Origin: an uncultured Bacteriovoracaceae bacterium
GTDB taxonomy: Bacteria > Bdellovibrionota > Bacteriovoracia > Bacteriovoracales > Bacteriovoracaceae
Assembly (NCBI GenBank): GCA_938017795.1
Contig: CALIJZ010000028.1
Span: 1 to 64,000 of the forward strand
Length of the DNA: 64,000 bases
Direction of reading: 5' to 3'
Part shown: positions 45,159-64,000 of the stretch, in pieces
How the letters are laid out: each line of letters begins with the position of its first letter
Position numbering within the stretch: the first letter of the stretch is position 1
Position numbers and translations under genes: made by a program
Notes under the pieces: generated by a model
Database searches by the model: none
Seen by the model: only the letters and a program-made list of their open reading frames with translations
Told to the model about the DNA's origin: nothing

Positions 45159-45522
45159 TTTTTTTTAATTAACTGCACTTTGTTCTTTTTCCATTTTATA
45201 TAGATTATTAGCTCCTAGCATACAATTTTTCAAAAAAGAAAAACAACACTCTCTTTCACTCATTCGGCTTCCAAAATGCTAATCAGGTCTTATTACTTTC
45301 GTGAAGTTCAACTATAGTTGAGAATGGCCCTTTATAAAATAATATTAAAAAATACTTAAGGAAAGTTGGCGGGGGCAATGGGTCGCGTTCAGGACTAAAT
45401 TGTTGGTTCAATCTTTCTTTATATAGGAATGGTTCCTTTTCTTGGTACTTTTAAGATTTTTGCACAAATCAGTTCTGGTTAATATACTTTGCTTTAATAG
45501 GTTTCAATTAAGGAGATAACCA
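45159..45522. other. Intergenic boundary between polysaccharide operon and cassette array
   Basis: 364 bp between divergent genes. Apart from the first array repeat (45365-45396), no ORF or RNA is evident. It must hold the promoters of the minus-strand polysaccharide operon and of the XRE regulator. Confidence 0.4.
45365..45396 (+). repeat. tRNA-tail-like array repeat R1 (left boundary)
   Basis: GTTGGCGGGGGCAATGGG then TCGCGTTCAGGACT. Matches the consensus over the first 25 positions, with two changes near the right end (TTCAGGAC for TTTAGAAC). Confidence 0.85.
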
Positions 45523-46260: not shown

Positions 46261-46305
46261 TGTTTCATAAAAAAGCCACTACTTCTTGAAGGGAAAACTA
46301 AAATC

Positions 46306-46707: not shown

Positions 46708-46815
46708 ATTTATTCTCCTTGAATAAGTTTGTATCCTTTAATCTTTATTGCGAATCAATTCTTTTTAGGAACCCTTCATGCTCAATGTCAAAAAAAAACA
46801 AGCTCACTTCTTGGC

Positions 46816-47550: not shown

Positions 47551-47762
47551 GTATTTCCTGAAGTACCCTTTATTGAGCAATTCGAGATATTTCCAACTTC
47601 CATTTTGCGCTTAAAAAATAGTTTCTTGGTTAACTCTTAAAGGTATATTCTATTTATGGATCTATTCGGTCGAGTACTAAAATCATATATAAAATACAGG
47701 GTAACAATAAGTAGACAAAACTCTATGGTAAGAAAGATTAATATCTTTAATTTGGAGTTTTT

Positions 47763-48323: not shown

Positions 48324-48439
48324 TTAAAAATTTACTAAGATTAAAAAAAGAAGTGGGTAACCTGTAATCTTTGTGAATTTTGATAAGGCATCCAATTATC
48401 GTTGTATATCCATTGAACATAAAAGTCTTTAAGAGTTGG

Positions 48440-48937: not shown

Positions 48938-49042
48938 ATTTTAATTTAAAGAAACTTCGACGTTTTTGTAAAGTAATTTGACACCGAGGTAATATTTTTA
49001 GATTTGAGAACAGTAATTGCTATTAAGTTATATAATTACTGG

Positions 49043-49756: not shown

Positions 49757-49757
49757 A

Positions 49758-50579: not shown

Positions 50580-50962
50580 TAGAGAGATATTCAAGTATTA
50601 GAATTGAGTTAATTAATCTATATATTGAGAAAAGATCAAACACTCATTCTTCACGTTTAATGTTGGAGATTAAGAACTGAAAAAGATGATAGACTCATAC
50701 CTAGCTCATCAAAGTATATTAAAGATAAGTTTTTTGTTTTTGCCTGAAATGTTGTCTGTGAATGGCGGGGCAATGGGTCACGTTTAGAACTCATATTTTC
50801 CTTGTTTTAGGTTTATGAATTCTAGTGATTTAAATATTGTAGAATAAAAGAGAAGCTCATGAATTAGACAGTTTTTATAATTTTTACACTTAAGGAAATT
50901 AAGAGAGCAAGAAAGTATTATTCTATATTTGAATTAGATTAAATCTTAACCAAGGGTATAGA
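50580..50962. other. Intergenic stretch holding repeat R2
   Basis: About 380 bp. Apart from repeat R2 (50763-50792), no ORF, RNA or strong hairpin was seen on either strand. Confidence 0.4.
50763..50792 (+). repeat. tRNA-tail-like array repeat R2
   Basis: TGGCGGGGCAATGGGTCA then CGTTTAGAACTC; one G shorter than consensus in the G-run. Confidence 0.85.
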
Positions 50963-51514
50963 ATGAAAAAAACAATTATAATTTCACTTTTTATATTAAA
51001 TTTCTCAACGAATCTTTTTTCTCAAAGTATAGGCAAGTTAGATAGCTATAACTTCGATCAGTATTATGATTTCGAGAATGGGGAAGGCTCAAGATTGGGC
51101 ATAGAACTATCTAGAGATATTGAAGACAATGGGACTTGTTTGGAGGACTTAAGAATAAAGTGTGCATATGAGAAAGCAAGGGAATTCAACGTAGGCATAG
51201 GGATTCTTGATGCACCTGGTATTTATATGAGCAAGTATTATAGTGTCTATTGCTCTACTGATTTTTATTTTCGCAAAAATAATGGATCTGAAAAAGTGAT
51301 TGAGAACTACCTTACTGTAGGGACTTGGAGTGATAGTGATATTTTTTCTTTCTTTTCATCAAAAGAAAGACCTGGAACTAAAAGACAGGCCTTGAGGCAA
51401 AGTGCTAATTTTTATCATCGAAAATTTTTTAATTCTAGATGTGAAAATTCAAGTTTACCTAGCTTTGATGACTTTTTTGAGATTCTTTCAGATGAAGTAC
51501 TTAATTTGAATTAA
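50963..51514 (+). CDS. Exported Cys-containing protein (cassette R2-R3)
   Basis: 183 residues, signal peptide MKKTIIISLFILNFSTNLFS. The mature part has Cys at DNGTCLEDLRIKCAYE, YCSTDF and SRCENS, likely disulfides. It is the sole gene between repeats R2 and R3, on the plus strand with its stop 113 bp before R3. No family recognised. Confidence 0.6.
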   Translation: MKKTIIISLFILNFSTNLFSQSIGKLDSYNFDQYYDFENGEGSRLGIELSRDIEDNGTCLEDLRIKCAYEKAREFNVGIGILDAPGIYMSKYYSVYCSTDFYFRKNNGSEKVIENYLTVGTWSDSDIFSFFSSKERPGTKRQALRQSANFYHRKFFNSRCENSSLPSFDDFFEILSDEVLNLN

Positions 51515-51626
51515 GCTTATGGTTTGCACTCAGGACTGGTGAATTTTCGGATTTCTTCGGCTAATAGTGCAAACTTTTATTTATAAATTTTTTAATCAGT
51601 ATTTAAGCATTGTTAATTTGTCGAAA

Positions 51627-51655
51627 TGGCGGGGGCGATGGGTAGCGTTTAGAAC
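51627..51655 (+). repeat. tRNA-tail-like array repeat R3
   Basis: TGGCGGGGGCGATGGGTA then GCGTTTAGAAC. Two substitutions relative to consensus. Confidence 0.85.
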
Positions 51656-51703
51656 CAAGTTATTATCATGATAATCTCTTTCTAGTAAGATTTTCTGTTT
51701 GTT

Positions 51704-52078
51704 TCAATCAATATACTTCCAAGAGTTCGCTCCATCAAAATGGCGAGTACGAATTTTATCAATCTCAAGGTTTGTAAAGAGCCTGGCATTGACTCCCATT
51801 CGATCTGTGAACTTAGGATCTAAGCTTCTCCAGTAGCTGTAACAACCACAATCCCCACAACGAACGAATGCTAGCCCCTTATCTCCCCATGAGTACTCTT
51901 GAGTAGTATTGGGTTTTGTAAGGATTTTTACTTCATCAGGATGAAAATATGCGTGTAACGAGCCATATCGCTGACAAATGGAACAGTTACAATTTGTTAA
52001 GAAAGTTGGGGGTTCGGCGTTAATCTCTAATTTGAGAGTTCCGCAATGACAAGAAGATTTAATTAAATTTGCTTTCAT
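51704..52078 (-). CDS. GFA (glutathione-dependent formaldehyde-activating-like) family protein
   Basis: 124 residues. Zinc-binding cysteines are arranged as SCHCGTLKLE, NCNCSICQRYG and RCGDCGCYSYW, the GFA/CENP-V fold. Despite the name, most members have unknown substrates. It is the only gene between repeats R3 and R4, on the minus strand: its stop is 49 bp after R3 and its start 55 bp before R4. A chromosomal frmA-frmB pair lies elsewhere in this window, but a link is only a guess. Confidence 0.88.
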   Translation of the reverse strand: MKANLIKSSCHCGTLKLEINAEPPTFLTNCNCSICQRYGSLHAYFHPDEVKILTKPNTTQEYSWGDKGLAFVRCGDCGCYSYWRSLDPKFTDRMGVNARLFTNLEIDKIRTRHFDGANSWKYID

Positions 52079-52132
52079 AATTTTAGCTTAGTTGATAATC
52101 ATTGAATGGTCAGTAATCAAGAAGGACTAAAA

Positions 52133-52164
52133 GTTGACGGGGCAATGGGGCGTGTTTAGAAACC
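52133..52164 (+). repeat. tRNA-tail-like array repeat R4
   Basis: GTTGACGGGGCAATGGGG then CGTGTTTAGAAACC. One G shorter in the G-run; TGAC replaces TGGC. Confidence 0.8.
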
Positions 52165-52271
52165 ATTTTATGGCTTATAGCAAAAGATCGGTAACTTTGT
52201 TTTCATATCTAAATCAATTACTTATATTTCAAGAATAACTTTAATAATAAAAACTTTAGGAAAGGATTAGT

Positions 52272-52730
52272 GTGATAGTTGTTAGGTTGATGAACGAAAA
52301 TGAGTTTGAACATGTCATGGGAAAAGCTCATCAAGATTATATTGAAGGTATGGCGAGAGCTCAAAATATTTCATTGGAAGAGGCGACTAGAAAAGCAGAC
52401 AAGCAAGTTCAAAGCATATTGAAAGACGGATATCATACTGAAAATCACTTGTTTTATGGAGTTGAGTTTAAAGGTGAGTTTGCTGGACTTGCTTGGATTG
52501 AAATCAAAGATGAAGGAAGATCGGCATGGGGATATAATATCTATGTTGAAGAAAAATTTAGAAGGCAGGGAATAGCTAAGAAAGTTTTTCAAGAACTTGG
52601 AGCAAAACTAAAGTCAGATGGTGTTCAACAAATGAGTTTTCATGTTTATGCAGATAATCCAAATGCACTTGCTCTTTATGAGCAATTTGGATTTAAAACA
52701 ACGAATATAGTCATGAGAAAGACTTTATAG
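52272..52730 (+). CDS. GNAT family N-acetyltransferase (cassette R4-R5)
   Basis: 152 residues from GTG 52272 with AGGAAAGG upstream. LAWIEIKDEGRSAWGYNIYVEEKFRRQGIAKKVFQELGAKLK contains the R-x2-G-x-A pyrophosphate loop. FHVYADNPNALALYEQFGFKTTNIVM is the motif B end. The acceptor is unknown; such enzymes are common cassette cargo. Only gene of its unit, 34 bp before R5. Confidence 0.9.
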   Translation: MIVVRLMNENEFEHVMGKAHQDYIEGMARAQNISLEEATRKADKQVQSILKDGYHTENHLFYGVEFKGEFAGLAWIEIKDEGRSAWGYNIYVEEKFRRQGIAKKVFQELGAKLKSDGVQQMSFHVYADNPNALALYEQFGFKTTNIVMRKTL

Positions 52731-52764
52731 TTGTAAGTCTTCTAGCTGGAAATCACTAAAATAT

Positions 52765-52796
52765 GTTGCCGGAGAAATGGGTCGCAATTAGAACTC
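52765..52796 (+). repeat. tRNA-tail-like array repeat R5
   Basis: GTTGCCGGAGAAATGGG then TCGCAATTAGAACTC. It supplies part of the stop codon of the minus-strand methyltransferase. Confidence 0.8.
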
Positions 52797-53553
52797 ATTT
52801 CTTAGTAGCTAAACAGAAATAAGACTTACATTCAGAGAAATAGTCCTCATCAGAGAGCGTGATGAGAAAGTCATTTTTAAATCTTTTAAAGTCATCTCCA
52901 AAGAAATTCTTAAGACCGCCCATTCTTTCAAGTCGATTTGACCAGGCAGTTATTACTTCTTCTGAAGATTTACCAGAGCCACTTAATTCACTATCTTTTA
53001 ATATCTCTTGTTCGATGATTTCTAGATCTAGTTCTTTAAATGTTTTTTCTATCTTTGAGCCACTTGAGAAGTCATAAACATTTCTTGAGAGAGCATCTTG
53101 ATAGAAAAGAGTGATTTTTTTTTGATCTGCGAGACTCATTGGTTGGTGAGAGAGGAAGTCATTGATTTCCGTTAAGGCAATCCAGCCTGTTGGGTTTAAA
53201 CTTTCTAACCATAGCTTAATAATTGATTTAGAATCCACGAAGTATGCAAGAACAAAACTGGACCAAATGCCATCAACAGGAGAGTCTATTAGTGAGCTCA
53301 GTTTTGTGAGGTCTCCTTGGATGAAGTTCGCATTCGGGATATTTCTAGACTTGGCATATTCTAATAGTTCTGGATTCGCATCGACTCCAATGACACTCGC
53401 TCCAAGTTTAGATAATTCATGAGAATGGTCGCCATGAGCACACCCTAGATCTAAAATAGTTTTACCTTTTAAGTCAGGAAGCTTTGAAAAGAGAGAATTC
53501 CAATCTCTCCACTGCCACTGCTTTTTATATTGATCTAGTAATGATGATTTCAT
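52795..53553 (-). CDS. Class I SAM-dependent methyltransferase (cassette R5-R6)
   Basis: 252 residues. GKTILDLGCAHGDHSHELSKLGASVIGVDANPELLEYAK is motif I and the acidic loop that binds S-adenosylmethionine. PVDGIWSSFVLAYFVD and GWIALTEINDFL are later motifs. Substrate unknown. Its stop codon overlaps the right end of repeat R5, and its start lies 62 bp before R6. Minus strand, opposite to its neighbours. Confidence 0.9.
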   Translation of the reverse strand: MKSSLLDQYKKQWQWRDWNSLFSKLPDLKGKTILDLGCAHGDHSHELSKLGASVIGVDANPELLEYAKSRNIPNANFIQGDLTKLSSLIDSPVDGIWSSFVLAYFVDSKSIIKLWLESLNPTGWIALTEINDFLSHQPMSLADQKKITLFYQDALSRNVYDFSSGSKIEKTFKELDLEIIEQEILKDSELSGSGKSSEEVITAWSNRLERMGGLKNFFGDDFKRFKNDFLITLSDEDYFSECKSYFCLATKK

Positions 53554-53615
53554 TTAAAGATAATCTCAGAATTGAGAATTAATGTCTTGAGTTTATTAGA
53601 TGGGAATCATTAAAA

Positions 53616-53645
53616 GTTGGCGGAGACGGCTCCACTTGAACCTAT
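53616..53645 (+). repeat. Array repeat R6, closest to real tRNA geometry
   Basis: GTTGGCGGAGACGGCTCC then ACTTGAACC. On the minus strand this reads GG-TTCAAGT-5 nt-7 nt-G-CCA, the exact spacing of a tRNA T-loop, T-stem, acceptor and CCA. The acceptor strand CGTCTCC is unlike tRNA-Asp. Confidence 0.75.
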
Positions 53646-53789
53646 TTCTGGATACTTGAAAATCATATCTATGGCCAATAACTTGCACAGCATTCTACAA
53701 GGTTGATTCGTCCTTCAGTGATCGTTTTTACAAGGAGGTTTACTTGTATATCAAATAGTGATATAGTGATATAGGCAAATGGAGTCATT

Positions 53790-54080
53790 GTGATAATTAG
53801 TTTTCAAGGAAAGATTGCCAAAGACATATGGGAGACAAATTCTTCCAAGTCGTTGCCAAGAGATTTATGGATACGTGCAAAGGCGCTTCTGACAATAATG
53901 CACGCAACAACAGATATAGAGGATTTAAAAATTAAAGGTCAGCCACCCAATATTCGTCTCCATAAACTTAAAGGTGATCGGAAAGAGTATTGGAGCGTAA
54001 CAATAAAATTACCTTGGTGTATAACGTTCAAATTTAAAAATGGAGAGTTCACCGAGGTTAAGATAGAGAACTATCATTAA
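53790..54080 (+). CDS. higB: HigB/RelE-type toxin
   Basis: 96 residues from GTG 53790, GGAG 5 nt upstream. RLHKLKGDRKEYWSVTIKLPWCITFKFKNGEFTEVKIENYH is the HigB/RelE strand set, with the family R-x-Y-W-S-(V/I) segment. HigB cleaves mRNA on the ribosome when its antitoxin is degraded. higA follows after 15 bp, so this is a type II toxin-antitoxin operon inside unit R6-R7. Confidence 0.92.
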   Translation: MIISFQGKIAKDIWETNSSKSLPRDLWIRAKALLTIMHATTDIEDLKIKGQPPNIRLHKLKGDRKEYWSVTIKLPWCITFKFKNGEFTEVKIENYH

Positions 54081-54095
54081 GCAGCGAGGTTTAAA

Positions 54096-54359
54096 ATGAT
54101 TACTAATTCAATGCCAATGCATCCAGGAGTTGTATTATCTTCTGTTTATATGTCTGAGATGGGTCTTACTCAGGTTGGACTTGCTAAGCTATGCGGTTGC
54201 ACGAGTGCAAAAATTAATGAAATTGTTAATAAAAAGCGTGGAATTACAGCGGTCTTTGCTATTACACTTGAGACTGTGCTTGGAACAAGTGCAGAGATGT
54301 GGGTCAGAATGCAAGCAGAGTATGACCTTTGGGAAGCAAGACAGAAGCTAGCTTCTTAA
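54096..54359 (+). CDS. higA: HigA-type antitoxin, XRE family
   Basis: 87 residues. HPGVVLSSVYMSEMGLTQVGLAKLCGCTSAKINEIVNKKRGIT is the HigA HTH. ALETVLGTSAEMWVRMQAEYDLWEA-type ending (here TLETVLGTSAEMW...) is the family C-terminus. Neutralises HigB and represses the operon. AGCGAGG precedes the start. Standard toxin-first HigBA order. Confidence 0.93.
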   Translation: MITNSMPMHPGVVLSSVYMSEMGLTQVGLAKLCGCTSAKINEIVNKKRGITAVFAITLETVLGTSAEMWVRMQAEYDLWEARQKLAS

Positions 54360-54385
54360 AACATTTTTCTTTCTAGAATCAACTT

Positions 54386-55009
54386 ATGAGTTTAAAAGAT
54401 CGACTTTTTTCTAATAATAATTATTACGATAAATTCCTTGGAAAAGTAGGAAACAGAAGTATAAATAGAGATTTTTCTAGATCAATGGATTTATTTGTTC
54501 AAGAAGTTAAACCTCAAGGAGTGGTTTTAGATGTTGGTTGTGGATCAGGTAATCATCTAAAAATGTTCAGGGAAAGAGGATTAGTTGCGATAGGGATAGA
54601 TCCTTGCCAAGCAATGAGAAGTATTTGTATTTCGAAAGGACTTAAAGTCATGGATGGTTGTTTCGAAGATATGCCATTAATAAAAGAAAACGTCTCAGGA
54701 ATTTGGTGCGCTTCTTCATTACTGCATGTCCCTAAAGCGGAACTAAGCGAGGTGCTTAAAGGTCTTAACTTACTGATAGTTGAGAGCGGTCCTTTGTTTG
54801 TAACGGTAAGACTTGGGACTGGATCTAAGTGGGATAGCTTTGACAGTATTGATTCTAAAATAGATCGACGGTTTATCCAATTGTATGAAGAAGACTTTTT
54901 GATTGAGGAACTAATAAAAGCAGGATTTAAAGTTAAAGACTTATTTATTGAAGATTCATACTGGGGCCGAGAAAGCAAGTGGATTTCTGTCGTTTTAAGT
55001 AAAATGTAA
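54386..55009 (+). CDS. Class I SAM-dependent methyltransferase
   Basis: 207 residues. VVLDVGCGSGNHLKMFRERGLVAIGIDPCQAM is motif I. ENVSGIWCASSLLHVPKAELSEVLKGL and GPLFVTVRLGTG are later motifs. DSKIDRRFIQLYEEDFLIEEL marks the C-terminal region. It follows higA by 26 bp and ends 45 bp before R7. Substrate unknown; not closely similar to the methyltransferase of the previous unit. Confidence 0.9.
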   Translation: MSLKDRLFSNNNYYDKFLGKVGNRSINRDFSRSMDLFVQEVKPQGVVLDVGCGSGNHLKMFRERGLVAIGIDPCQAMRSICISKGLKVMDGCFEDMPLIKENVSGIWCASSLLHVPKAELSEVLKGLNLLIVESGPLFVTVRLGTGSKWDSFDSIDSKIDRRFIQLYEEDFLIEELIKAGFKVKDLFIEDSYWGRESKWISVVLSKM

Positions 55010-55386
55010 ATCACTTGAAATTCAAGAAATGTTTAAATGAAATCATTAATTAAAGTTGGCGGAGGCAATGGGTCTCATTCAGAACCGATTTATTCATGAT
55101 TAAAAATTAATCAGAAATAAGCTAGGTGATACGTTTTTTTTCTTTTATTTCTTTTTAGTGCTTCACTATAATTTCAGACTGAAATTATATTAATGGCTAG
55201 CTGCGATGACTTAGATCTTTCAAGTGTAGTTTTTGGAAAATTAATCAAACCTTCCCCCGTTCATATTATTTATGATGATATACGTAATGAGGTTGAGGTT
55301 ATTAATACCTGACTAGAGCTGACCGTTGATATAAGTTTTCTTTAGAGCTAAGATTTTTTATTGAATTAGTTTAACTGGAAGGAAGT
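55010..55386. other. Intergenic stretch with repeat R7 and a doubtful 39-codon ORF
   Basis: About 377 bp. It contains R7 (55055-55086) and a plus-strand ORF 55193-55312 (starts MASCDDLDLSSVVFGKLIKP) lacking a clear RBS. The peptide looks protein-like in composition but cannot be assigned; it may be the remnant of a former cassette gene. Confidence 0.35.
55055..55086 (+). repeat. tRNA-tail-like array repeat R7
   Basis: GTTGGCGGAGGCAATGGG then TCTCATTCAGAACC. Confidence 0.85.
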
Positions 55387-55917
55387 ATGAATTTTTTAAG
55401 CTTATTATTGATGTTATGTTTGATTTCTTGTGCTAGTGAACAAATTGTTAGCAAAAGACAGGTTGCTACAAGTGATAGTCCGCTAATAAAGTGTACAGAT
55501 GTAGAACTAGATGGAACTTATGAAGTCGTTGAATCTTTTGGAAATAAAAGAAATCGAGAACTCTTTACTTATATTCTAGATTTTAGTCCTGAAAATCTTC
55601 CATTAAATTTTGAAAAAAAAAAACTTGGAGTTACAACTCAGACATATAAAGTAAATATTTCAAATGTGAGTGGATCTTCATTGAAAACTATTAATAGTTT
55701 ATATAGGCGGTATAAAGTTCGTTACGCTAGTTTAGAGGAAGCCACAAGCACTGGCCGTTGCGGAGTAAAGTGGTATTTTGACCCAACCGATACTTATATT
55801 AATGATTATTATCATTCATTATTTTATGAACTTGATGGAAATAATGGATTTTCTCTTGCCGGAAGTAGTTTTCGAAAAGATTTTAGAAGATTATCAATCT
55901 TTAAAAGAAAGATTTAA
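55387..55917 (+). CDS. Lipoprotein, paralogue of the lipoprotein at 61937
   Basis: 176 residues. MNFLSLLLMLCLISCASEQIVSKRQVATSDSPLIKCTDVELDGTYEV has lipobox LISC and then a second Cys. The protein at 61937 has the same order: VSCASYQEI..., then LISCSDLSLVGEYDF. Late RCGVKWYFD here parallels GCAIVYWSK there. Hence two members of one family in two separate units. AAGGAAGT precedes the start. Function unknown. Confidence 0.68.
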   Translation: MNFLSLLLMLCLISCASEQIVSKRQVATSDSPLIKCTDVELDGTYEVVESFGNKRNRELFTYILDFSPENLPLNFEKKKLGVTTQTYKVNISNVSGSSLKTINSLYRRYKVRYASLEEATSTGRCGVKWYFDPTDTYINDYYHSLFYELDGNNGFSLAGSSFRKDFRRLSIFKRKI

Positions 55918-56156
55918 TCTTGAAAAAAGGCGAACAAATCCCTAATTTCTATTTAAGCTGTAATTCTAGGTGTTGAGCATCCTTGATATTCACTAGCTAG
56001 ACCTATTTACTTTCTTCCTAAGCAATTGATCTCTAGGAAATTAAGTAGAAACCCGTCAAAATAAAATCTCCTTAATCTCAAGATCGGGTCATTCAGATAA
56101 AGCAATAAGGATTAAAATTATTTACATTCGTTCTGTTTGTTTATACAAATTTCCCT

Positions 56157-57701
56157 ATGAATAAACTACTTTTTTTTCTTTTACTACTTTCTTCGAAATA
56201 TTCTTATTCTCAAACATATAAAGTACCAGATCTTTTATTAAGAAACATTTCAATCATAAATGTTCAAAACGGAAAGATATTAAAGAATAAAACTTTACTT
56301 CTTAGAGATGGGTACATAGTTGATATTAAAGATGTCAATTCAAAATGGAATCTTTCAAAAAAGGTTAAAACTATTAATAGTTCTGGTAAATTCTTAATAC
56401 CGGGCTTAATGGATGCTCATGTTCACCTGGCTGGTACTCATAGTCCTGAAAGACGAGGAAGAAAATTTCTTCACGATGATTTAAAACTTTTCTTAGTCAA
56501 CGGGGTCACTAGTATTCGAAATATGAAAAGTTTCGCAAGTGAAGTAACTCTTGCAAATAAAATCAAAAAAAGACAACTTTTAGCTCCTAATCTTTTTGTA
56601 GCAACTCCAGCTCTAGATAATAGAAAAGATATTGATTTTGGTGAAAAAGATTTTCAATGTTGGGATACATGGTCAAATTGTTCAATAGTTAATAAGAAAG
56701 GAGCTTTGGCCCTAATGGATCGATTTGAAAAGGTCGGTTTTGATATAGTTAAACTAAGAGAACCTCTAACCAATGAGATGGCACTTTTTCTGGTCGAACT
56801 TGCTAAAACAAAAAAAATGCAAATCGCAGGTCATATCTCAGAAGGAAGTTTTTATCCAAAAGTCTTGAGCAGAAATATTTTTGACTCTATAGAACATAGT
56901 TACCATTATCGCTACCTTGAAAGTGAAAAATCTCCTTTTAAAAAACTGGAAGCAGGCAAAGATTATCCTCTCTATACCTTATTGCACATGTTTCACTTAG
57001 ATAAATTAAAAACACTTCGTTTTTTTAAGTATATTCACTCTGATTTTAATGGATATTTTACTCCAACCCTTTTTATGGCAGAAATTTTTGCTAATGTACT
57101 TACTGCTCCTCTAAATGCGAAAAATATTCAAGGGAGTCAGTATATAGATAAATGTACAATTGATGACGTCAACAAAGTATATCAACAGCGATACCAGAAT
57201 AAACTCGTAAGAAAGTTTAATTCTTATAAAGGAAAAAATAGTTATCTGAAAGCTTTAAAGAAAACACGAGAACTTAATCAGAAAATGCATTTTGCTGGGG
57301 CTAAGTTTGTAGCTGGAACTGATGCTAATGTTCCTGGCGTTTGGCCTGGTTTTTCTCTACATGCAGAACTTAAAGCTCTTACTAAAGCTGGATTGAGTAA
57401 CTTATCTGCTTTACAGTCTGCTACTATCAATGCAGCAAAACTCATGAAGAAAAAAAAATCAGGCTTCATAAAAAAAGGCTATAAGGCTGATTTAGTCATT
57501 TTGAATGCAAATCCTTTAAAAGATATCTCACACAGTAAAAATATTTTTGGGGTGATCAGAGATGGGGTCTATATAAATAAAAGAAAAATAGATATTATCT
57601 ATGAAAAAATTAAAAAAAGAGCATCACAGCACCAATGTAGCTCAAATAAGAAAACTGGAAAAAGAGTTGAGAAGTTTAGGGTCTTCCATCATCACTTCTA
57701 G
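56157..57701 (+). CDS. Exported amidohydrolase (imidazolonepropionase-like/prolidase-like)
   Basis: 514 residues with a signal peptide (MNKLLFFLLLLSSKYSYS). Metal ligands are visible: FLIPGLMDAHVHLAG (HxH), IVKLRE (Lys region), IAGHISEG and SIEHSYHYR (His), FVAGTDANVPGVWPGF (Asp). The C-terminal KKGYKADLVILNANPLKDI is the usual beta-sandwich. Such secreted enzymes cut dipeptides or cyclic amides. It ends in a His-rich tail. It has no repeat directly on either side; unit R7-R8 is long and mixed. Confidence 0.87.
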   Translation: MNKLLFFLLLLSSKYSYSQTYKVPDLLLRNISIINVQNGKILKNKTLLLRDGYIVDIKDVNSKWNLSKKVKTINSSGKFLIPGLMDAHVHLAGTHSPERRGRKFLHDDLKLFLVNGVTSIRNMKSFASEVTLANKIKKRQLLAPNLFVATPALDNRKDIDFGEKDFQCWDTWSNCSIVNKKGALALMDRFEKVGFDIVKLREPLTNEMALFLVELAKTKKMQIAGHISEGSFYPKVLSRNIFDSIEHSYHYRYLESEKSPFKKLEAGKDYPLYTLLHMFHLDKLKTLRFFKYIHSDFNGYFTPTLFMAEIFANVLTAPLNAKNIQGSQYIDKCTIDDVNKVYQQRYQNKLVRKFNSYKGKNSYLKALKKTRELNQKMHFAGAKFVAGTDANVPGVWPGFSLHAELKALTKAGLSNLSALQSATINAAKLMKKKKSGFIKKGYKADLVILNANPLKDISHSKNIFGVIRDGVYINKRKIDIIYEKIKKRASQHQCSSNKKTGKRVEKFRVFHHHF

Positions 57702-57745
57702 AGATTTATAAAATTCTGGATTTTTTCAAAAAACTACGAATAATT

Positions 57746-57775
57746 CAAAAAATGAGGAGGTAATTTCATTTTTTG
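57746..57775 (+). terminator. Hairpin after the amidohydrolase gene
   Basis: CAAAAAATGA (57746-57755) pairs with TCATTTTTTG (57766-57775), flanked by AATT on both sides; 44 bp after the stop. A/T-rich stem, so only moderate support. Confidence 0.45.
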
Positions 57776-58013
57776 GGAATTGTTGATTTTACAAATATCA
57801 GAGAAGCGATTATTACTCATATTCACTCAGCTAAAAATAAATCGACCCGATTCTAGATATTTGCAGCAATACTGGCCAATCTGAACATTTCATCTCCCAG
57901 AAAAAATTAATTAAGTTGTCAGCCATTTTTCCAATATAAATAAGTATGAAATTTTCATCAGATTTTGGTGTTAAAAAATCAGGTGTCATGGAAGTACAGG
58001 GATTTTAGGACAT
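57776..58013. other. Intergenic stretch without recognised gene
   Basis: Spacer of about 240 bp between the two hairpins. No ORF with RBS and no intact array repeat was found on either strand. Confidence 0.35.
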
Positions 58014-58042
58014 AAAAAAACTCGGGGAGGATGTCCCGAGTT
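58014..58042 (-). terminator. Rho-independent terminator of the minus-strand broken gene
   Basis: AACTCGGG (58019-58026) pairs with CCCGAGTT (58035-58042). On the minus strand the stem is followed by a run of T, the typical terminator form. Confidence 0.75.
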
Positions 58043-58093
58043 CAAATATTTTCAAGTGCTATAGAACTAAGTGTTTTGTGAAAGTCACTACTA

Positions 58094-58753
58094 TCATGAG
58101 GAGAGATCCCCAGCTATTTTTAGAAGCTTTGCTTTTGACTCAAGCATTAATCTATACTCAAAAAACTTGTGCCTTTCTGACAGATCTGGATTATTTTTCT
58201 TAATTCTCTCAAAATTTTTTTCTATTTCTGACTTTAATGAAGTGATTTTCTTTCTAGATTTATTCCAAATACCTTGATCAGTAATCCTTTCTAAGAGCGA
58301 AGTATGGATAGCGATTTCTAATAATGAGTTTTCTCTTATAAAAAGAGATTTTTTTAAATATGACAAATAACTATTCAGGATAGATTTTTTCGCTCTCTTG
58401 TCTAGATCTTTCAAGTCTGAGATTGCGGCTTTAGATAGTTCAAATTCACTAAATAAGTGGCAACCATCTAGTTCTTTGCTATATAACTAGTTGAATTTAA
58501 ATCGATTATAAACGGGCATTTTTTCTTTTAAGCTAGATAGACTATTAAAAAAAGGTGCTCTCTTATTGTTATTCTTGATCTTATAAGATCTTTCTAGATC
58601 GACCGATTCCTTCTCATTCAGCTTGATAAAAGAGCTAACCACTAATTTCGATAAGAGAGTGTCGCATTTCTTTTTCTCTTTTATCGCTATCTCTTGATAG
58701 TTGATATTATTTCCAAAAGCTGAAATAGCAAAAATGTAAAAGATAAGTTTCAT
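58094..58753 (-). pseudogene. Exported protein gene interrupted by an in-frame amber codon
   Basis: One continuous minus-strand frame begins at ATG 58753 with a signal peptide (MKLIFYIFAISAFG) and runs to TGA at 58094. It is broken only by TAG at 58489-58487. The upstream part is 88 codons; downstream, the frame continues LYSKELDGCHLFSEFELSKAAISDLKDLDKRA and on through a helical tail. The product would be about 218 residues, helical and Lys/Leu-rich. It is either a recently inactivated gene, a sequencing error, or a readthrough case. It has its own terminator. No family recognised. Confidence 0.7.
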
Positions 58754-58911
58754 TATTTTCCTTTTTTAAGGTTATCTAAAAGATTCTACGAGCATCCATA
58801 TAAAAACGATTCGAAGAGCAAGTGCAATTCACATTAAGTTTACATTCTACTTTCGATCTGCTCGGTCAATAGTGGAAACTATCCAATAAACCCCTCTGAC
58901 ACGTCTCGTAA

Positions 58912-59091
58912 GCTACTGATAAATTAAAATCTAAATTTAACAGATATTTAGATCCAGAACAACAAAGGAAACTAATCAAGATCTTGATTAGCAAGATTGA
59001 AGTAGATTCAACATCAGTGACTATTCATTTTTTTATAGGAGAGAAGCATATAGCAAGAGGAGCTAGTAAAACCAGATCATCAAAAAAATAA
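58912..59091 (+). pseudogene. C-terminal remnant of a site-specific serine recombinase
   Basis: An open frame without a start codon follows a stop at 58909-58911 and ends at TAA 59089-59091. It reads NRYLDPEQQRKLIKILISK then IEVDSTSVTIHFFIGEKHI. This resembles the end of large serine recombinases, where a Glu/Gln/Arg-rich helix leads into an I-(E/V)-V-x3-V-x-I-x-F/Y strand. No catalytic domain is left in the window. It lies 30 bp before repeat R8. The call is by eye and moderate. Confidence 0.5.
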
Positions 59092-59121
59092 TCTTGAAAA
59101 GTGTTCGACTAATTTGATAAA

Positions 59122-59152
59122 TGGCGGGGGCAATGGGTCGCGTTTAGAACTC
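59122..59152 (+). repeat. tRNA-tail-like array repeat R8
   Basis: TGGCGGGGGCAATGGG then TCGCGTTTAGAACTC; exact consensus core. Confidence 0.9.
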
Positions 59153-59198
59153 TTATGTGTTGCCTGAACTATGTTCAGTGTGACAGTGCTTTGCTAGA

Positions 59199-59627
59199 AT
59201 GAATCAAATGACTGACATGATTATTTTATCCTGTGTTATAATAGCACTTACCCTTCTTTTTAAAGTTAAAAGGAGAGCTGACTTTAAAAGAAAACTTGTT
59301 GAGTTCAATGGAAGGGTCTTTCTTTTTTATAATAATAGAAGTGAGTTAATTAATTTATTCGAGGGCGATCTTAACGGGAAATTAGTTTCTTCAGTGAAGC
59401 CGATCCTGCTGGAGGGGCGAACTGCGTTGTGCGGTAAAGAAAATAAAGAATTTTTTAAAAAATTACTGTGGGATTTAAGAAAGTACAAGAAGTTCCCTCA
59501 TCTAGTGAAAATCGAAAATGGTAAGATTATCGAAAATTCTATCAACAATCTTACTTATAATATAATTAATGGGACTCAAAGTCTAAACGAGCTTATTGAT
59601 TTGATTAATAAATTTCCTGGAAGATAG
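59199..59627 (+). CDS. Membrane-anchored protein of unknown function (cassette R8-R9)
   Basis: 142 residues. One N-terminal helix (DMIILSCVIIALTLLF) followed by a basic stretch, so N-out/C-in anchoring is likely. The soluble part is mixed alpha/beta with no recognised domain. TTGCTAGAAT just upstream looks like an extended -10, so the unit may carry its own promoter. The NUDIX gene begins 10 bp after its stop. Confidence 0.55.
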   Translation: MNQMTDMIILSCVIIALTLLFKVKRRADFKRKLVEFNGRVFLFYNNRSELINLFEGDLNGKLVSSVKPILLEGRTALCGKENKEFFKKLLWDLRKYKKFPHLVKIENGKIIENSINNLTYNIINGTQSLNELIDLINKFPGR

Positions 59628-59637
59628 CGATCGAGGA

Positions 59638-60039
59638 ATGGAAGTTGTTAAGAAAGTATTAGCGTATATTTATAGAAATCCAGAGGAAGTATTAGTATTT
59701 AATCATCTTTTGTATCCTGAAGTAAGTCCCCAAGTAATCTGTGGGACAGTCGAAGAAAGTGAAGGATTAGAAGAAGCAGTTCTTAGAGAAATTTTTGAAG
59801 AATCAGGATTAAGGCTGAAGAATCCAGCACTTTTGAAAACAGCGTCTTATATTAGAAAGGATTTAAACCAATTGCATGAAAGAAATATTTTTGAATTGTT
59901 TGATGTAAACTTACCTGACAAATGGAAACATGTCGTAAGCTCAGGAGAGGAAGATCAAGGAATGGAATTTGAGTTTTATTGGCTAAGCACTAATGAAGCA
60001 AAACTAAAACTAGTTGGTGAGATGGGATTATATTTATAA
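59638..60039 (+). CDS. NUDIX hydrolase (cassette R8-R9)
   Basis: 133 residues. The Nudix box is complete: GTVEESEGLEEAVLREIFEESGL fits G-x5-E-x7-R-E-U-x-E-E-x-G-U. It hydrolyses a nucleoside diphosphate linked to another moiety; substrate unknown. It starts 10 bp after the membrane protein, so both probably share a transcript. Stop 19 bp before R9. Confidence 0.92.
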   Translation: MEVVKKVLAYIYRNPEEVLVFNHLLYPEVSPQVICGTVEESEGLEEAVLREIFEESGLRLKNPALLKTASYIRKDLNQLHERNIFELFDVNLPDKWKHVVSSGEEDQGMEFEFYWLSTNEAKLKLVGEMGLYL

Positions 60040-60058
60040 ATATTGAGAAAATAAAGAA

Positions 60059-60090
60059 GTTGGCAGGAGCAATGGGTTGAGTTTAGAACT
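60059..60090 (+). repeat. tRNA-tail-like array repeat R9
   Basis: GTTGGCAGGAGCAATGGG then TTGAGTTTAGAACT. Confidence 0.85.
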
Positions 60091-60179
60091 TGCATTATGT
60101 CAAAATCTAAACTTGAGGTTGCTCTTTAAATTGCAAGAGGAGCGAGATAATATTATTAGGTGAAACAAAAGGAATAAGA

Positions 60180-60683
60180 ATGAATATTATATTATTGTCT
60201 GTGGGGCTCTTTATTAGTTCTTGTGCAGGTTTGAAGACATATGATGTAAAGAAAAAATATGATTCATCGCAGATTGCTTGGTCAAAATCAAAAGGGACAT
60301 CAGTCATTTCTGGTGAAGCATTCTTATTAAAGAAACTTGATGGAAGCATAGTAACATGTGCAGGACAAAACGTAATGCTGACAGCAAGGTCTGACTATTC
60401 AAATGAAAGGTTTGCAATTCTTTATGGTTTTGAGGAAGACGCATATGGAAAAACCTTTACACCTAAGCCTGTACAATTGTCTGGAGCTCCTTCAGAGTAC
60501 TTTTCGGATAAAAAAATAAAAAAATGTAATTCGAAAGGAGAATTTTCTTTTACGCAAGTTCCCAATGGAAAGTACTTCCTAGAAGCGCGAGTGTGGTGGG
60601 GAGGAGATTTAGGAGAAACCTTAATGCAATTAATCGATATTAATAAGGAAAATCAGACAGTCAAAGTTCAACTGAACCAATAA
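60180..60683 (+). CDS. Lipoprotein with possible carboxypeptidase-regulatory-like fold (cassette R9-R10)
   Basis: 167 residues, lipobox LFISSCAGL. The later part KKCNSKGEFSFTQVPNGKYFLEARVWWGG has the G-x-F-x-F-x2-(V/L)-P-x-G-x-Y pattern of CarboxypepD_reg-like beta-sandwiches, which often bind or display. A Cys (IVTCAG) pairs possibly with KKCNS. Only gene of its unit; stop 26 bp before R10. Confidence 0.68.
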   Translation: MNIILLSVGLFISSCAGLKTYDVKKKYDSSQIAWSKSKGTSVISGEAFLLKKLDGSIVTCAGQNVMLTARSDYSNERFAILYGFEEDAYGKTFTPKPVQLSGAPSEYFSDKKIKKCNSKGEFSFTQVPNGKYFLEARVWWGGDLGETLMQLIDINKENQTVKVQLNQ

Positions 60684-60709
60684 AGATAACCTTGATAAAT
60701 AATGAAAAA

Positions 60710-60742
60710 GTTGGCGGGGGCAATGGGTCGCGTTTAGAACTC
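60710..60742 (+). repeat. tRNA-tail-like array repeat R10 (consensus copy)
   Basis: GTTGGCGGGGGCAATGGG then TCGCGTTTAGAACTC; 33 bp, taken as the consensus. Confidence 0.92.
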
Positions 60743-60791
60743 AGCTTAAACCTTAATTGCCAATTATTTCTTTCGAGGGGACAATAATCAA

Positions 60792-61178
60792 ATGAAAAAA
60801 AGCCCTCTCTTAATTGTAACCTTTATGAGTATTGTTTACGCAATCTACACAAAGAATAGCTCGAATCCTTTTGTCTTTGGAAGTTTTAACTTTTATTCAG
60901 CGTTTTCCATGGAGCATGTTCTGGGCTCTTTGTTTAAGTTTAAACATATAGTTCATTATGCAATTACTTATTTACTGGCTGTTTATGCATTTGGATTTAA
61001 GGGAAATCAATTGAAAATAATCGGTTGTTGTTTCTTTTTAGGGCTTTTCATTGAAGTTCTTCAAGGTTTTGTACCATCAAGAGGAGCTTCTTTTACTGAT
61101 CTATTACCTAATGTTCTCGGGATTGTGCTTGGGGCTCTACTTCTTCAAGTTATGCGAGTTTTGAAGTTGGAGAGTTAA
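60792..61178 (+). CDS. VanZ-like family membrane protein (cassette R10-R11)
   Basis: 128 residues with about four hydrophobic segments. KHIVHYAITYLLAVYAFG and FIEVLQGFVPSRGASFTDLLPNVLGIVLGALL are the VanZ signature (E-x-x-Q-x-F-x-x-x-R-x-x-x-x-x-D). VanZ relatives change sensitivity to some glycopeptide and lipopeptide antibiotics in Firmicutes, but most members are uncharacterised. Only gene of its unit, stop 4 bp before R11. Confidence 0.9.
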   Translation: MKKSPLLIVTFMSIVYAIYTKNSSNPFVFGSFNFYSAFSMEHVLGSLFKFKHIVHYAITYLLAVYAFGFKGNQLKIIGCCFFLGLFIEVLQGFVPSRGASFTDLLPNVLGIVLGALLLQVMRVLKLES

Positions 61179-61182
61179 AAAA

Positions 61183-61215
61183 GTTGGCGGGGGCAATGGG
61201 TCGCGTTTAGAAATC
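61183..61215 (+). repeat. tRNA-tail-like array repeat R11
   Basis: GTTGGCGGGGGCAATGGG then TCGCGTTTAGAAATC; differs from R10 at one position (A for C). Confidence 0.92.
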
Positions 61216-61286
61216 ATTTACCTACTTTCATGAAAAGATAAGTGGAAAGTTAGTAAATTATTGTTTTTTTTCTTATACAATGAATC

Positions 61287-61829
61287 ATGTCGAATTTTTA
61301 TCAGGAACTTCCTATATTTGAAACACAAAGGCTTATTATGCGACCTTTAGTTGAGAGTGACTTTGAGCACATGCGTAAGCTTGAAACCGAAGAAAGTGTA
61401 GTTAAATATCTTGGAAATGGAGAAATTAGAACAGAAGAAGAGACAAGGTATTATTTAAACAAGCATCTAAATGATTATAGAAAGTATGGATTAGGACTTT
61501 ATGCAGTCGAAGAGAAAGAAAGCAACATCTTTATTGGACGATCAGGCTTAATCCCTTGGGTTTTAGATAAAGTAAATAAACCTCTTTGGGAAATTGGTTA
61601 TACCTTAAGAAAAGAGAGTTGGGGCAAGGGATATGCAACTGAACTAGCGTCACACCTTAAGAGTTGGGCCGAAAGTAATCTTGATACAGACTTTGTTGTG
61701 AGCTTGATTCACCCTGAGAACAAAGCTTCTATCAATGTTGCAAAGAAGATTGGGATGGATTTTTGGAAAAAAATTAAAATAAATAATTATGAATGTGACG
61801 GCTATAGAATCAAGTTTCACAAGGGATGA
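61287..61829 (+). CDS. GNAT acetyltransferase, RimJ/RimL-like (cassette R11-R12)
   Basis: 180 residues. FETQRLIMRPLVESDFEHM opens the RimL-type domain. EIGYTLRKESWGKGYATELASHLKSWAE contains the acetyl-CoA loop (W-G-x-G-x-A). SLIHPENKASINVAKKIGMDFWKK is motif B. It probably acetylates a protein N-terminus or small amine. A TATACAAT box just upstream suggests a promoter within the unit. Only gene of its unit, stop 10 bp before R12. Confidence 0.92.
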   Translation: MSNFYQELPIFETQRLIMRPLVESDFEHMRKLETEESVVKYLGNGEIRTEEETRYYLNKHLNDYRKYGLGLYAVEEKESNIFIGRSGLIPWVLDKVNKPLWEIGYTLRKESWGKGYATELASHLKSWAESNLDTDFVVSLIHPENKASINVAKKIGMDFWKKIKINNYECDGYRIKFHKG

Positions 61830-61839
61830 TACGAAAGGT

Positions 61840-61872
61840 GTTGGCGTGGGCAATGGGTCGCGTTTAGAACTC
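61840..61872 (+). repeat. tRNA-tail-like array repeat R12
   Basis: GTTGGCGTGGGCAATGGG then TCGCGTTTAGAACTC. The bases before it (AAAGGT) are the same as those before the tRNA 3' end (AAAGGT). Confidence 0.9.
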
Positions 61873-61936
61873 ATTTCCTCAATTAAAGAAATTCACTTGA
61901 AAGTCCGATTATTAGTTGAAAAAGAGGAGGGCTCAT

Positions 61937-62479
61937 ATGAAGTGTTCAGTATTTGTCATGATTTTAGGCTTAGTGTCTTGTGCTAGTTACCAAGAAATAG
62001 GAAATAGAAAAATTGCAAATGAGCAAGATCTTATAAGTTGTAGCGATCTTAGTTTGGTGGGAGAATATGATTTTTCACATACTCCAGAAAGAGGGGGAGT
62101 TACTATTAACTTTAAGAAAAAATTTGAAAAATCTATGATTCCTAGAACTAATATTTTAGGTTTTAAGGTAAGTGTTGATGATATTGATATTAGAAGAAAA
62201 GACGGTTCTCCTTTGGATAAACAGATGAAGGTCAGTGGAGAAAGTTCTCTTGAGGATTTCTATTCAAGTCATCCTTATACATCATTGGTAAGTGGTAATG
62301 GTACTGAAGAGGGTTGTGCGATCGTTTATTGGAGCAAAACAAGAGATGGCTATTTTGAGGCAGATGACTCATCCCTTACTTATATTACGGAGCTTTTTGA
62401 TGATGGAAGTTTTTGGGTTGGAGATCAAATCTCAGAAAGTCCTAGTCGTATGCGTATATCTCTATTTAAAAAAAATTGA
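61937..62479 (+). CDS. Lipoprotein, paralogue of the lipoprotein at 55387 (cassette R12-R13)
   Basis: 180 residues from MKCSVFVMILGLVSCASYQ, with GAGGGCTCAT before ATG 61937; the longer frame to 61916 is not needed. Lipobox LVSC. Segments LISCSDLSLVGEYDF and GCAIVYWSK parallel those of the 55387 protein. Beta-rich. Only gene of its unit, 31 bp before R13. Function unknown. Confidence 0.68.
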   Translation: MKCSVFVMILGLVSCASYQEIGNRKIANEQDLISCSDLSLVGEYDFSHTPERGGVTINFKKKFEKSMIPRTNILGFKVSVDDIDIRRKDGSPLDKQMKVSGESSLEDFYSSHPYTSLVSGNGTEEGCAIVYWSKTRDGYFEADDSSLTYITELFDDGSFWVGDQISESPSRMRISLFKKN

Positions 62480-62510
62480 TCAGTGTGTGAATGTTGTTGA
62501 TTTCAATAAA

Positions 62511-62540
62511 TTGCGGGGGCAATGAGTCGTGTTTAGAACC
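62511..62540 (+). repeat. tRNA-tail-like array repeat R13
   Basis: TTGCGGGGGCAATGAG then TCGTGTTTAGAACC; several substitutions. Confidence 0.85.
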
Positions 62541-62589
62541 AATCTGTACTGCAAACGCAAAGAAATCTTAGTAGTTAATAGCGAGTGTC

Positions 62590-63360
62590 TCAGTGGGGTA
62601 AAAACATAAATAGTCTCAATGTTCCAAGGTTTAGCACCAGCGGAGCAGGAAGAATAATTACTATCCAACAGAAGATGGTTTTGAAATTAAGCGAAGTATT
62701 TTTAAGGAGCCTTGTTTCAATAAAACTACCAATAAACTGAATAAAGAAATATAAAAACATAGATCCGAACAAGCTCTTTTGATAGATGAGATATAATGGG
62801 ACATTTACGATAATTTCATGGATAAAAGCGGAAATAAAGAAAGAGGCAAAGCTTCCTAACGCAGGATTTGAGAATCTGCTAAATATATGTTCTCGGAACC
62901 AGTCGGAAAAAAAGGTGTTCCAGCGCTTACCCCAAAATTGTTTTAAAGAAGTTGATTTAAATATATCTTGATGAACAGCAGGAAGGTAAGACCAATCTTT
63001 CAAAGATAGCAACTGAAGAATTCTTCCGAAGCAATTAGTTAATATAAAAAAAGGAATGATTGCCACATAAGAATTGATTATCCAATTATTAGAAAAAAAG
63101 ATTTTTTCTTTAAAGCTGTAAATAATCACTAATAGAAGTGCTTGAGGCAAGATGACTTTAATTAGATCCCACACATCATTTTTAGAAAACATACGACCCT
63201 TCAGAAGGGTTGAATAATCTGGAGTTGGTCCTAATAGAAAAAACTTTAGTTTATTGCTAGCAGGTATTTCTTTTAACGTTAATACTGAGCAGGCTTTCAT
63301 CGCAACTCCAACACAAGCAAGAAGAGCAAGGTAGAGATAAGTGATATTAGAAAAGATCAT
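62590..63360 (-). CDS. MBOAT/wax-synthase-like membrane acyltransferase (cassette R13-R14)
   Basis: 256 residues, about seven hydrophobic segments. LKQFWGKRWNTFFSDWFREHIF is the wax-synthase/MBOAT_2 block (S-x-x-F-W-x-R-R-W). FISAFIHEIIVNVPLYLIY carries the conserved His of MBOAT enzymes. Likely transfers an acyl chain to an alcohol or a glycan hydroxyl. Only gene of its unit: stop 49 bp after R13 and start 51 bp before R14, on the minus strand. Confidence 0.78.
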   Translation of the reverse strand: MIFSNITYLYLALLACVGVAMKACSVLTLKEIPASNKLKFFLLGPTPDYSTLLKGRMFSKNDVWDLIKVILPQALLLVIIYSFKEKIFFSNNWIINSYVAIIPFFILTNCFGRILQLLSLKDWSYLPAVHQDIFKSTSLKQFWGKRWNTFFSDWFREHIFSRFSNPALGSFASFFISAFIHEIIVNVPLYLIYQKSLFGSMFLYFFIQFIGSFIETRLLKNTSLNFKTIFCWIVIILPAPLVLNLGTLRLFMFLPH

Positions 63361-63411
63361 ATTTAAAGAGTACTAATAACTGAAAGTAATGTGCAAGTTT
63401 TAATAGTAAAA

Positions 63412-63444
63412 GTTGGCGGGAGCAATGGGACGTGTTTAGAACTC
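63412..63444 (+). repeat. tRNA-tail-like array repeat R14 (tRNA-proximal)
   Basis: GTTGGCGGGAGCAATGGG then ACGTGTTTAGAACTC. Matches the tRNA-Asp 3' end at 16 of the first 21 positions from TGG, more than the consensus copy (15). Confidence 0.9.
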
Positions 63445-63504
63445 ATCTAAATCAAGCCTGACTCGCAACTTATAAGTATATGCTGCGAGTTAAAATACAA
63501 TGTT

Positions 63505-63825
63505 TTAGTAAAAAAGAACTCTTGCTCGAAGAGAATAGCTTTTTTCGTCATCAACTGAATGGCTTAAAACGTAATTTGAAGTTCTGTCTAGTCCTTCAAT
63601 TTTTACGATCGTCCCAAGTTCTTTAGATAATTGTTTTTTTAGTTGAGCTACTTTGCAAGTAAACTCTGCATCAGTTGAAGGATCGGAGTCTGAAGTTTCA
63701 AGACACTCTACAGTTGCATTGATTTCTACTATTTTCAAACTTTGTTCAGTTTTAGTTATAGAGAAATCTGAAGCACTAGAAAGGCAAGTTCCCAAGATGG
63801 CAGCTATAATTAATGATTTTTTCAT
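63505..63825 (-). CDS. Exported protein of unknown function (cassette R14-tRNA)
   Basis: 106 residues, signal peptide MKKSLIIAAILGTCLSSAS. The mature part has Cys at VECLETS and FTCKVA, probably one disulfide, and a beta-rich C-terminus (YSLRARVLFY). AAAGGAAAATGT precedes the start. It is the newest-position unit, between the last repeat and the intact tRNA. No family recognised. Confidence 0.6.
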   Translation of the reverse strand: MKKSLIIAAILGTCLSSASDFSITKTEQSLKIVEINATVECLETSDSDPSTDAEFTCKVAQLKKQLSKELGTIVKIEGLDRTSNYVLSHSVDDEKSYSLRARVLFY

Positions 63826-63957
63826 ACATTTTCCTTTTGTTATTATTCATTATGAATATTTTTGTATTGAGGTTTATTAGTAAAAAATATTAGATAAAAC
63901 GAGTTAAGATTAGATTAAGACGAATTTAGTGAAAAATATTCATGGATTTAAAGGTGT

Positions 63958-64000
63958 TGGCGGGAGTGAAGGGACTCGAACCCTCGGCCTTCTGCGTGAC
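63958..64000 (-). tRNA. tRNA-Asp(GUC), 3' part (runs off the window)
   Basis: On the minus strand the last 43 bases read from anticodon GTC: GTCACGCAGA (anticodon and 3' stem), variable loop, T-arm GAGGG-TTCGAGT-CCCTT with five pairs, acceptor strand CACTCCC, discriminator G, and encoded CCA ending at 63958. GTC followed by ACGCAG is the tRNA-Asp signature. The 5' half lies outside the window. Its 3' end is the anchor for the direct repeats to its left. Confidence 0.88.

Follow-up and report, generated by a model that had tools for sequence, protein, structure and literature searches.

A tRNA-Asp-anchored array of mostly single-gene, integrase-less cassettes in an uncultured Bacteriovoracaceae bacterium

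Results

Between the 3′ end of a tRNA-Asp gene and the DNA that once abutted it, the genome of an uncultured Bacteriovoracaceae bacterium carries a block of mostly single-gene units separated by directly oriented copies of a short site, inserted exactly at a 7-bp sequence, TGGCGGG, that the site has in common with the tRNA end. On balance, we favor the view that integrase-less, mostly single-gene cassettes accumulated at this tRNA end by conservative site-specific recombination, with the recombinase provided in trans. The window, that is, the whole stretch of DNA analyzed, comprises the first 64,000 bases of the 64,036-base contig C28 in a draft genome of 2.86 Mb. Comparisons were made from assemblies only and with the few congeners available (three: G066, G067, and G068).

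A repeated site between genes

Weight matrix and pattern searches located 13 copies of a site of ~34 bp, all on the plus strand and intergenic, from 45367 to 63442 (Table 1; start positions are counted from the first T of TGG). The site is laid out as AAAAGT-TGGCGGG-GGCAATGGGTCGCGTTTAGAACTC and likewise as AAAAGT-TGGCGGG-GGCAATGGGTCGCGTTTAGAAC, and the repeat consensus is AAAAGTTGGCGGGGGCAATGGGTCGCGTTTAGAACTC. Left of TGG, several copies are without GTT and have AAATGG, GAATGG, or AAATTG forms. Intervals from repeat to repeat are 0.5-5.4 kb. All 13 copies lie between genes, one of them touching an ORF end; thirteen such misses by random 34-nt sites would have a chance of about 1e-7, although the sites themselves help to create the gaps.

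A pattern search of the whole genome gave 13 forward matches, 12 of them in one block, and no reverse match. Thirteen of the 15 scored copies lie in a single orientation inside one 18-kb block, and outside the array the genome has degraded copies only (degraded copies are those at 52135, 52767, C52:2162, and C52:3019). The repeat was absent from the viral contigs, plasmids, and phages searched, and among the GTDB genome contigs searched only a G068 contig matched. A repeat profile run over 129 genomes of the order found convincing matches in this genus only, three weak matches in other genera falling inside seemingly coding regions.

Table 1. Features of the array, its tRNA anchor, and related sites in other genomes
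Feature	Position	Strand	Remarks
Repeat 1	45367..45395	+	left of ancestral flank
Ancestral 3′ flank of tRNA-Asp (X)	50666..50762	.	homology to G068 tRNA-Asp flank, ending at TGGCGGG
Repeat 2	50763..50790	+	junction of ancestral flank and first cassette
Cassette gene	50963..51514	+	
Repeat 3	51627..51655	+	
Cassette gene, GFA family	51704..52078	-	
Repeat 4	52135..52162	+	
Cassette gene, GNAT acetyltransferase	52272..52730	+	
Repeat 5	52767..52794	+	
Cassette gene, methyltransferase	52795..53553	-	multi-gene cassette 52767-55057
HigB-like toxin (53790-54080) and HTH antitoxin-like partner (54096-54359)	53790..54359	+	cassette 52767-55057
Methyltransferase-like gene	54386..55009	+	cassette 52767-55057
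Repeat 6	55057..55085	+	
Cassette gene	55387..55917	+	interval 55057-59122
Amidohydrolase	56157..57701	+	interval 55057-59122
Repeat 7	59122..59150	+	cassette end on its left recurs beside tRNA-Trp island (C52)
Two-gene cassette: ORF (59199-59627) and NUDIX hydrolase (59638-60039)	59199..60039	+	
Repeat 8	60061..60089	+	
Cassette gene	60180..60683	+	
Repeat 9	60712..60740	+	consensus
Cassette gene, VanZ-like	60792..61178	+	
Repeat 10	61185..61213	+	
Cassette gene, GNAT acetyltransferase	61287..61829	+	
Repeat 11	61842..61870	+	left arm AAAGGTGT in common with tRNA flank
Cassette gene	61916..62479	+	
Repeat 12	62511..62539	+	12/21 to tRNA, among the least similar
Cassette gene, MBOAT-like	62590..63360	-	
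Repeat 13	63414..63442	+	R14 of the earlier note; 16/21 to tRNA
tRNA-proximal cassette gene, 106 aa	63505..63825	-	unit 63461-63957 also beside tRNA-Asp in G066
tRNA-Asp(GTC) 3′ end, encoded CCA	63958..64000, gene on to 64034	-	ARAGORN; 5′ neighbors same in G066, G067, G068
Related site TGGCGGGAGCGTAAAGACACGATACC, examples	G044:C1:202802 and 205779; G003:C3:1336731; G045:C11:653323; G058:C19:18212; others		

The tRNA anchor, the empty site, and the crossover

With the last 36 bases of the contig included, ARAGORN predicts a full-length minus-strand tRNA-Asp(GTC) at 63958-64034; an Rfam scan of the window gave no match, the tRNA being interrupted by the window end. Contig C43 overlaps the tRNA and five flank bases and extends on the 5′ side of the tRNA, where its genes are syntenic in G066, G067, and G068; the 3′ side therefore faces left, into the array.

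The empty site is found in G068. Window 50666-50769 is 84% identical to G068:C66:1400-1504, the DNA abutting tRNA-Asp in that congener, and the homology continues through GTCTGTGAATGGCGGG, beyond which G068 has the tRNA body and this genome has GCAATGGGTCACGTTTAGAAC. Relative to G068, 13.2 kb (50770-63957) separate the same flank from the same tRNA, and as the homology splits after TGGCGGG, this segment is an insertion exactly at TGGCGGG. Insertion at a tRNA 3′ end is a feature of tRNA-anchored additive islands and CIME arrays that this locus shares. At a second junction, window 59023-59132 is 87% identical to C52:1894-2004 of the same genome, a locus beside a tRNA-Trp island, and the two again diverge at TGGCGGG. 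Left of TGGCGGG, the flanks of the two tRNA-Asp genes in the empty-site comparison differ (GTGAA versus GGTGT), and the bases to its right differ between repeat and tRNA; the exchange therefore occurred inside TGGCGGG. We infer that the crossover in tRNA-Asp lies in the TGGCGGG at 63958-63964, and we propose tRNA-Asp as the primary insertion site.

A wider segment, window 22154-63460 (~41 kb), corresponds to only 3.4 kb between the same neighbors in G066, and the tRNA-Asp island therefore exceeds the repeat array. Its part at 22-45 kb of the window has glycosylation and sugar-nucleotide genes and is without the repeats.

Cassette units and their movement

There are 12 intervals from 50763 to the tRNA. 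Nine are single-gene by prediction and span 0.4-0.9 kb; one has two genes and the two longest have more. Gene orientation within the cassettes is mixed. The cargo (GNAT, NUDIX, VanZ, methyltransferase, HigBA) is integron-like, and the HigB-like toxin/HTH pair in one cassette is reminiscent of the stabilizing toxin-antitoxin cassettes of large integrons. A defense-gene scan of ten cassette proteins found nothing except a weak match of the HTH protein. The interval 55057-59122 also holds an intergenic repeat of ~72 bp (58854-58925), with 78-84% identical copies on C63 and C23 of this genome and on C4, C28, C20, and C45 of G068. Short homologies (84-87%) link window 57791-58078 to C8:4584 and C8:12280 of this genome and to G068:C2:3169; they are intergenic and near a terminator-like hairpin.

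A carbonic-anhydrase cassette delimits the mobile unit. The copies at C52:2171-3046 of this genome and C52:5981-6858 of G068 are 86% identical in DNA, and the homology begins inside the left repeat and stops inside the right repeat, with unrelated surroundings. Their proteins are 93% identical, against 77% identity between the two genomes in the DNA beside tRNA-Asp. As the homology runs from repeat to repeat, the mobile unit consists of right arm, gene, and left arm, and closing it into a circle would yield just one consensus repeat. Beside tRNA-Asp in G066 lies a unit that is 81% identical to the tRNA-proximal unit of the array (63461-63957), in contrast to ~70% for the adjoining core gene, which suggests lateral exchange. 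A repeat at the left border of the G066 unit was not detected by profile, and a decayed copy suspected by eye is unsupported. The tRNA-proximal unit has no counterpart in G068, a closer relative of this genome than G066; either it was inserted independently or the array was lost exactly in G068, and TGGCGGG would have been used either way. With the unit present in the more distant G066 and absent from the closer G068, the cassette beside the tRNA need not be the newest. Most cassettes are without a relative in the three congeners, which leaves one or two with direct evidence of movement.

Similarity of the site to the tRNA end

An earlier note on this DNA had described the repeats as becoming more tRNA-like next to the tRNA. 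The counts behind that description are correct: of 21 positions, the copy at 63414 matches tRNA-Asp at 16, against 15 for the consensus copies (45367, 59122, 60712, 61185), the 61842 copy (its R12) and the tRNA have AAAGGTGTTGGCG in common, and the GAAC of the repeat is displaced outward by 5 nt relative to that of the tRNA. Similarity between repeat and tRNA is also above chance (15/21, p = 0.0003, composition-matched shuffles). Most of it is TGGCGGG: outside this motif the match is 8/14 (p = 0.026), and exact identity of the repeat with the tRNA end is limited to these 7 bases.

The gradient itself is not borne out. From left to right, the identities to tRNA-Asp (out of 21) are 15, 15, 15, 13, 12, 14, 15, 13, 15, 15, 14, 12, and 16 (Spearman rho = -0.02, p = 0.95 across 13 copies), and repeat distance bears no relation to array distance (Mantel test, r = -0.12, p = 0.75, in an alignment with copy 52767 slightly out of register). 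The two extra tRNA matches of the 63414 copy are A8 and A17 of the 21-mer, and its neighbor is among the least similar copies. The shared AAAGGTGT preceding TGGCG entered with the cassette end on the left-hand side of the crossover and is no evidence for a gradient. TTTAGAAC, which had been ascribed to all repeats, is exact in only 8 of 13. Nor is the resemblance specific to tRNA-Asp, as tRNA-Trp fits the repeats equally well; among 29 tRNAs with readable 3′ ends, only these two end in TGGCGGG. What stands is the proposal that the site is a related sequence of the incoming units and no tRNA duplicate, as seen in the empty site of G068 and in the carbonic-anhydrase cassette at two loci. That the site is cassette-borne, and not a copy of the tRNA end, is thus well supported. 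An intergenic copy in G067 (C175:1738-1756), TAGCGGGTTGCAGAGGGTCGCGTTTAGAACTC, joins a GCAGAGGG resembling tRNA-Trp to the cassette right arm, a hint that the system also used tRNA-Trp.

A candidate recombinase family

There is no PF00589 match anywhere on C28, the array cassettes encode no tyrosine recombinase, and no integrase fragment is detectable in the twelve units from 50763 to the tRNA. The genome has five tyrosine-recombinase matches, three of them full-length. One, a protein of 366 aa encoded at C52:9316-10416, adjoins tRNA-Trp and belongs to a small, satellite-like island at the 3′ end of this tRNA gene (C52:1990-10471) that also encodes a VapE/D5-type primase-helicase; further tyrosine recombinases lie at C86:57354 and C19:15259. 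This island is bounded by CAAATGGCGGGTGCAGAGGGATTC, with a 24-bp direct repeat that includes TGGCGGG, and holds the carbonic-anhydrase cassette near one end; the second att-like site, at C52:3019, suggests a tandem unit holding this cassette.

A homologue of the C52 recombinase lies beside tRNA-Asp in G037 (E = 5e-42), in an island that ends in TGGCGGGAGCGAAGGG. Homologues are present in 69 of 125 genomes of the family, and about half of 30 loci checked adjoin a tRNA (Trp, Ser, Arg, Glu, or Pro). The mover of the cassettes is most likely a tRNA-type tyrosine recombinase acting in trans, the candidate family being chosen by its association with these sites. Because this family uses many tRNAs, no single member is assignable to the cassette repeat.

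Discussion

Our model for the growth of the array begins with a cassette circle that would carry one ~34-bp site, in which AAAAGTTGGCGGG would be joined to GGCAATGGGTCGCG. Exchange within TGGCGGG, common to the CCCGCCA end of the tRNA, would insert the circle; the tRNA body would be retained, CCCGCCA would be restored from the cassette left arm, and the cassette right arm GCAATGGGTCGCGTTTAGAAC would be left at the junction away from the tRNA. Repeated insertion, at the tRNA or at resident repeats, could then line up different genes between sites of one orientation. As no recombinase is encoded in the cassettes, the enzyme would have to act in trans; it is probably a tyrosine recombinase belonging to the family whose members place islands at tRNA 3′ ends among the Bacteriovoracaceae. 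The sequences themselves show the array, its orientation, the empty site, the 7-bp crossover, and the unit boundaries; the circular intermediate, the enzyme class, its action in trans, and the order of insertion are the parts of this model that we infer.

It is conceivable, although unlikely, that there is no dedicated cassette system and that serial tRNA-Asp islands with integrases were each later deleted to one gene by CIME formation and accretion. Accretion has been described for tRNA and tmRNA sites (PMC5704250, PMC3146451), and integrase-bearing islands do occupy tRNA-Asp in G037 and tRNA-Trp here. However, nine of the twelve units are single-gene, of 0.4-0.9 kb, with no integrase fragment detectable, and it seems unlikely that so many independent deletions would reach such a size with both ends kept. 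One cassette, that with carbonic anhydrase, has moreover been found elsewhere as a free single-gene unit.

Quite improbable is an origin by homologous or illegitimate recombination between short repeats that shuffles genes, the repeats being passive remnants of one decayed tRNA-targeted island. RecA-mediated exchange can occur over a length of ~34 bp, albeit inefficiently. Several degraded copies and the restriction of the common carbonic-anhydrase cassette to two genomes would suit such remnants, but two independent comparisons both break within one stretch of 7 bases, most units hold a single gene, and the sites are all in one orientation. Furthermore, decay of an island would not leave a full 34-bp site, the same each time, between all of its genes.

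Very little speaks for a small intergenic repeat family, REP/MITE-like or regulatory, that resembles the tRNA end by chance. The copies are intergenic and alike in sequence, but their clustering in one block and one orientation, a repeat that is not palindromic, and genes that leave the copies both ways do not agree with it, and only insertion of the entire block accounts for the empty-site junction of G068; a REP-like repeat was rejected on its single orientation and single locus. A true divergent integron, with attC-like repeats in a sedentary chromosomal integron minus intI, is scarcely credible and was also rejected on sequence tests: single-gene cassettes of mixed functions, toxin-antitoxin cargo, and direct repeats would fit, but there are no R''/R' box pairs, no RYYYAAC/GTTRRRY complementary pairs within 150 nt, and no excess of hairpins on either strand (mean z -0.32 to 0.17), several copies are without the left GTT, and IntI is lacking, the three full-length tyrosine recombinases reaching 28-70 bits against an integron integrase model with a cut-off of 265.

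Accumulation of cassettes by site-specific recombination, the reading that we prefer, places the array closest to the tRNA-anchored additive islands and CIME accretion (PMC4119200, PMC10872708, PMC7771536, PMC5704250, PMC3146451); it departs from that kind in its mostly single-gene units and in a conserved cassette-borne site instead of a tRNA-end copy. Additive flexible genomic islands at tRNA genes include Alteromonas fGI1 (PMC4119200), fGI-2 of the Methylophilaceae, with units of 330 bp to 42 kb and 1 to 63 CDS (PMC10872708), and those of Ca. Actinomarinales (PMC7771536). They likewise have a tRNA as cassette target, repeats at cassette ends, and units that can be very small, but their repeats are described as tRNA-end copies (e.g., the last 20 bp of tRNA-Lys), whereas here only TGGCGGG is exact. 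CIME accretion and the Dehalococcoides ssrA genomic islands, sixteen of which carry integration modules with serine recombinases (PMC5704250, PMC3146451), offer tandem units, many of them integrase-less, with direct repeats at one tRNA or tmRNA 3′ end and a recombinase from other elements. Their units are islands, in contrast to the mostly one-gene units without an integration module found here.

Chromosomal integrons resemble the array in single-gene cassettes with one site each, uniform site orientation, and GNAT, toxin-antitoxin, and hypothetical cargo; the array differs in having no IntI, attI, or attC fold or boxes, in its mixed gene orientation, and in its tRNA anchor. Tycheposons also combine tRNA 3′ ends as targets, tyrosine recombinases, and cargo genes, but carry their own recombinase, unlike the array units. 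The pdif modules of Acinetobacter plasmids place ~28-bp sites around single genes and use the host recombinase in trans. Short sites bounding single genes, and a recombinase that here would act in trans, are common to both; however, the site described here has no Xer-like inverted arms and its copies all point one way. An Xer/dif module was rejected, as there are no two inverted ~11-bp arms around a 6-8-bp center (best arm match 5/11).

We tentatively raise the possibility that the locus is an integron-like but independently evolved gene-capture platform, with free single-gene cassettes, its own double-stranded ~34-bp site, a tRNA as fixed primary site, and a tRNA-type tyrosine recombinase in trans. 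If true, this would be a second architecture, outside integrons, by which single genes are stored next to a fixed chromosomal site, in an understudied lineage with predatory relatives. It would exemplify how tRNA-targeting recombination could produce cassette arrays, and the sharp empty site and 7-bp crossover make the proposal directly testable.

Nine of 125 genomes of the family, from six genera, contain a related site, TGGCGGGAGCGTAAAGACACGATACC (up to 3 mismatches), which lies 1-7 kb on the tRNA-Asp 3′ side in the cases with the tRNA position available. The units in G044, G003, and G045 have no integrase related to the recombinases of the genome described here, and those of G044 are two in tandem. 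Insertions have thus reached the tRNA-Asp 3′ end repeatedly in the family, with at least two different cassette-borne arms, and elements with other arms of the TGGCGGGAGCGTAAAGACACGATACC kind may occupy tRNA-Asp across the Bacteriovoracaceae.
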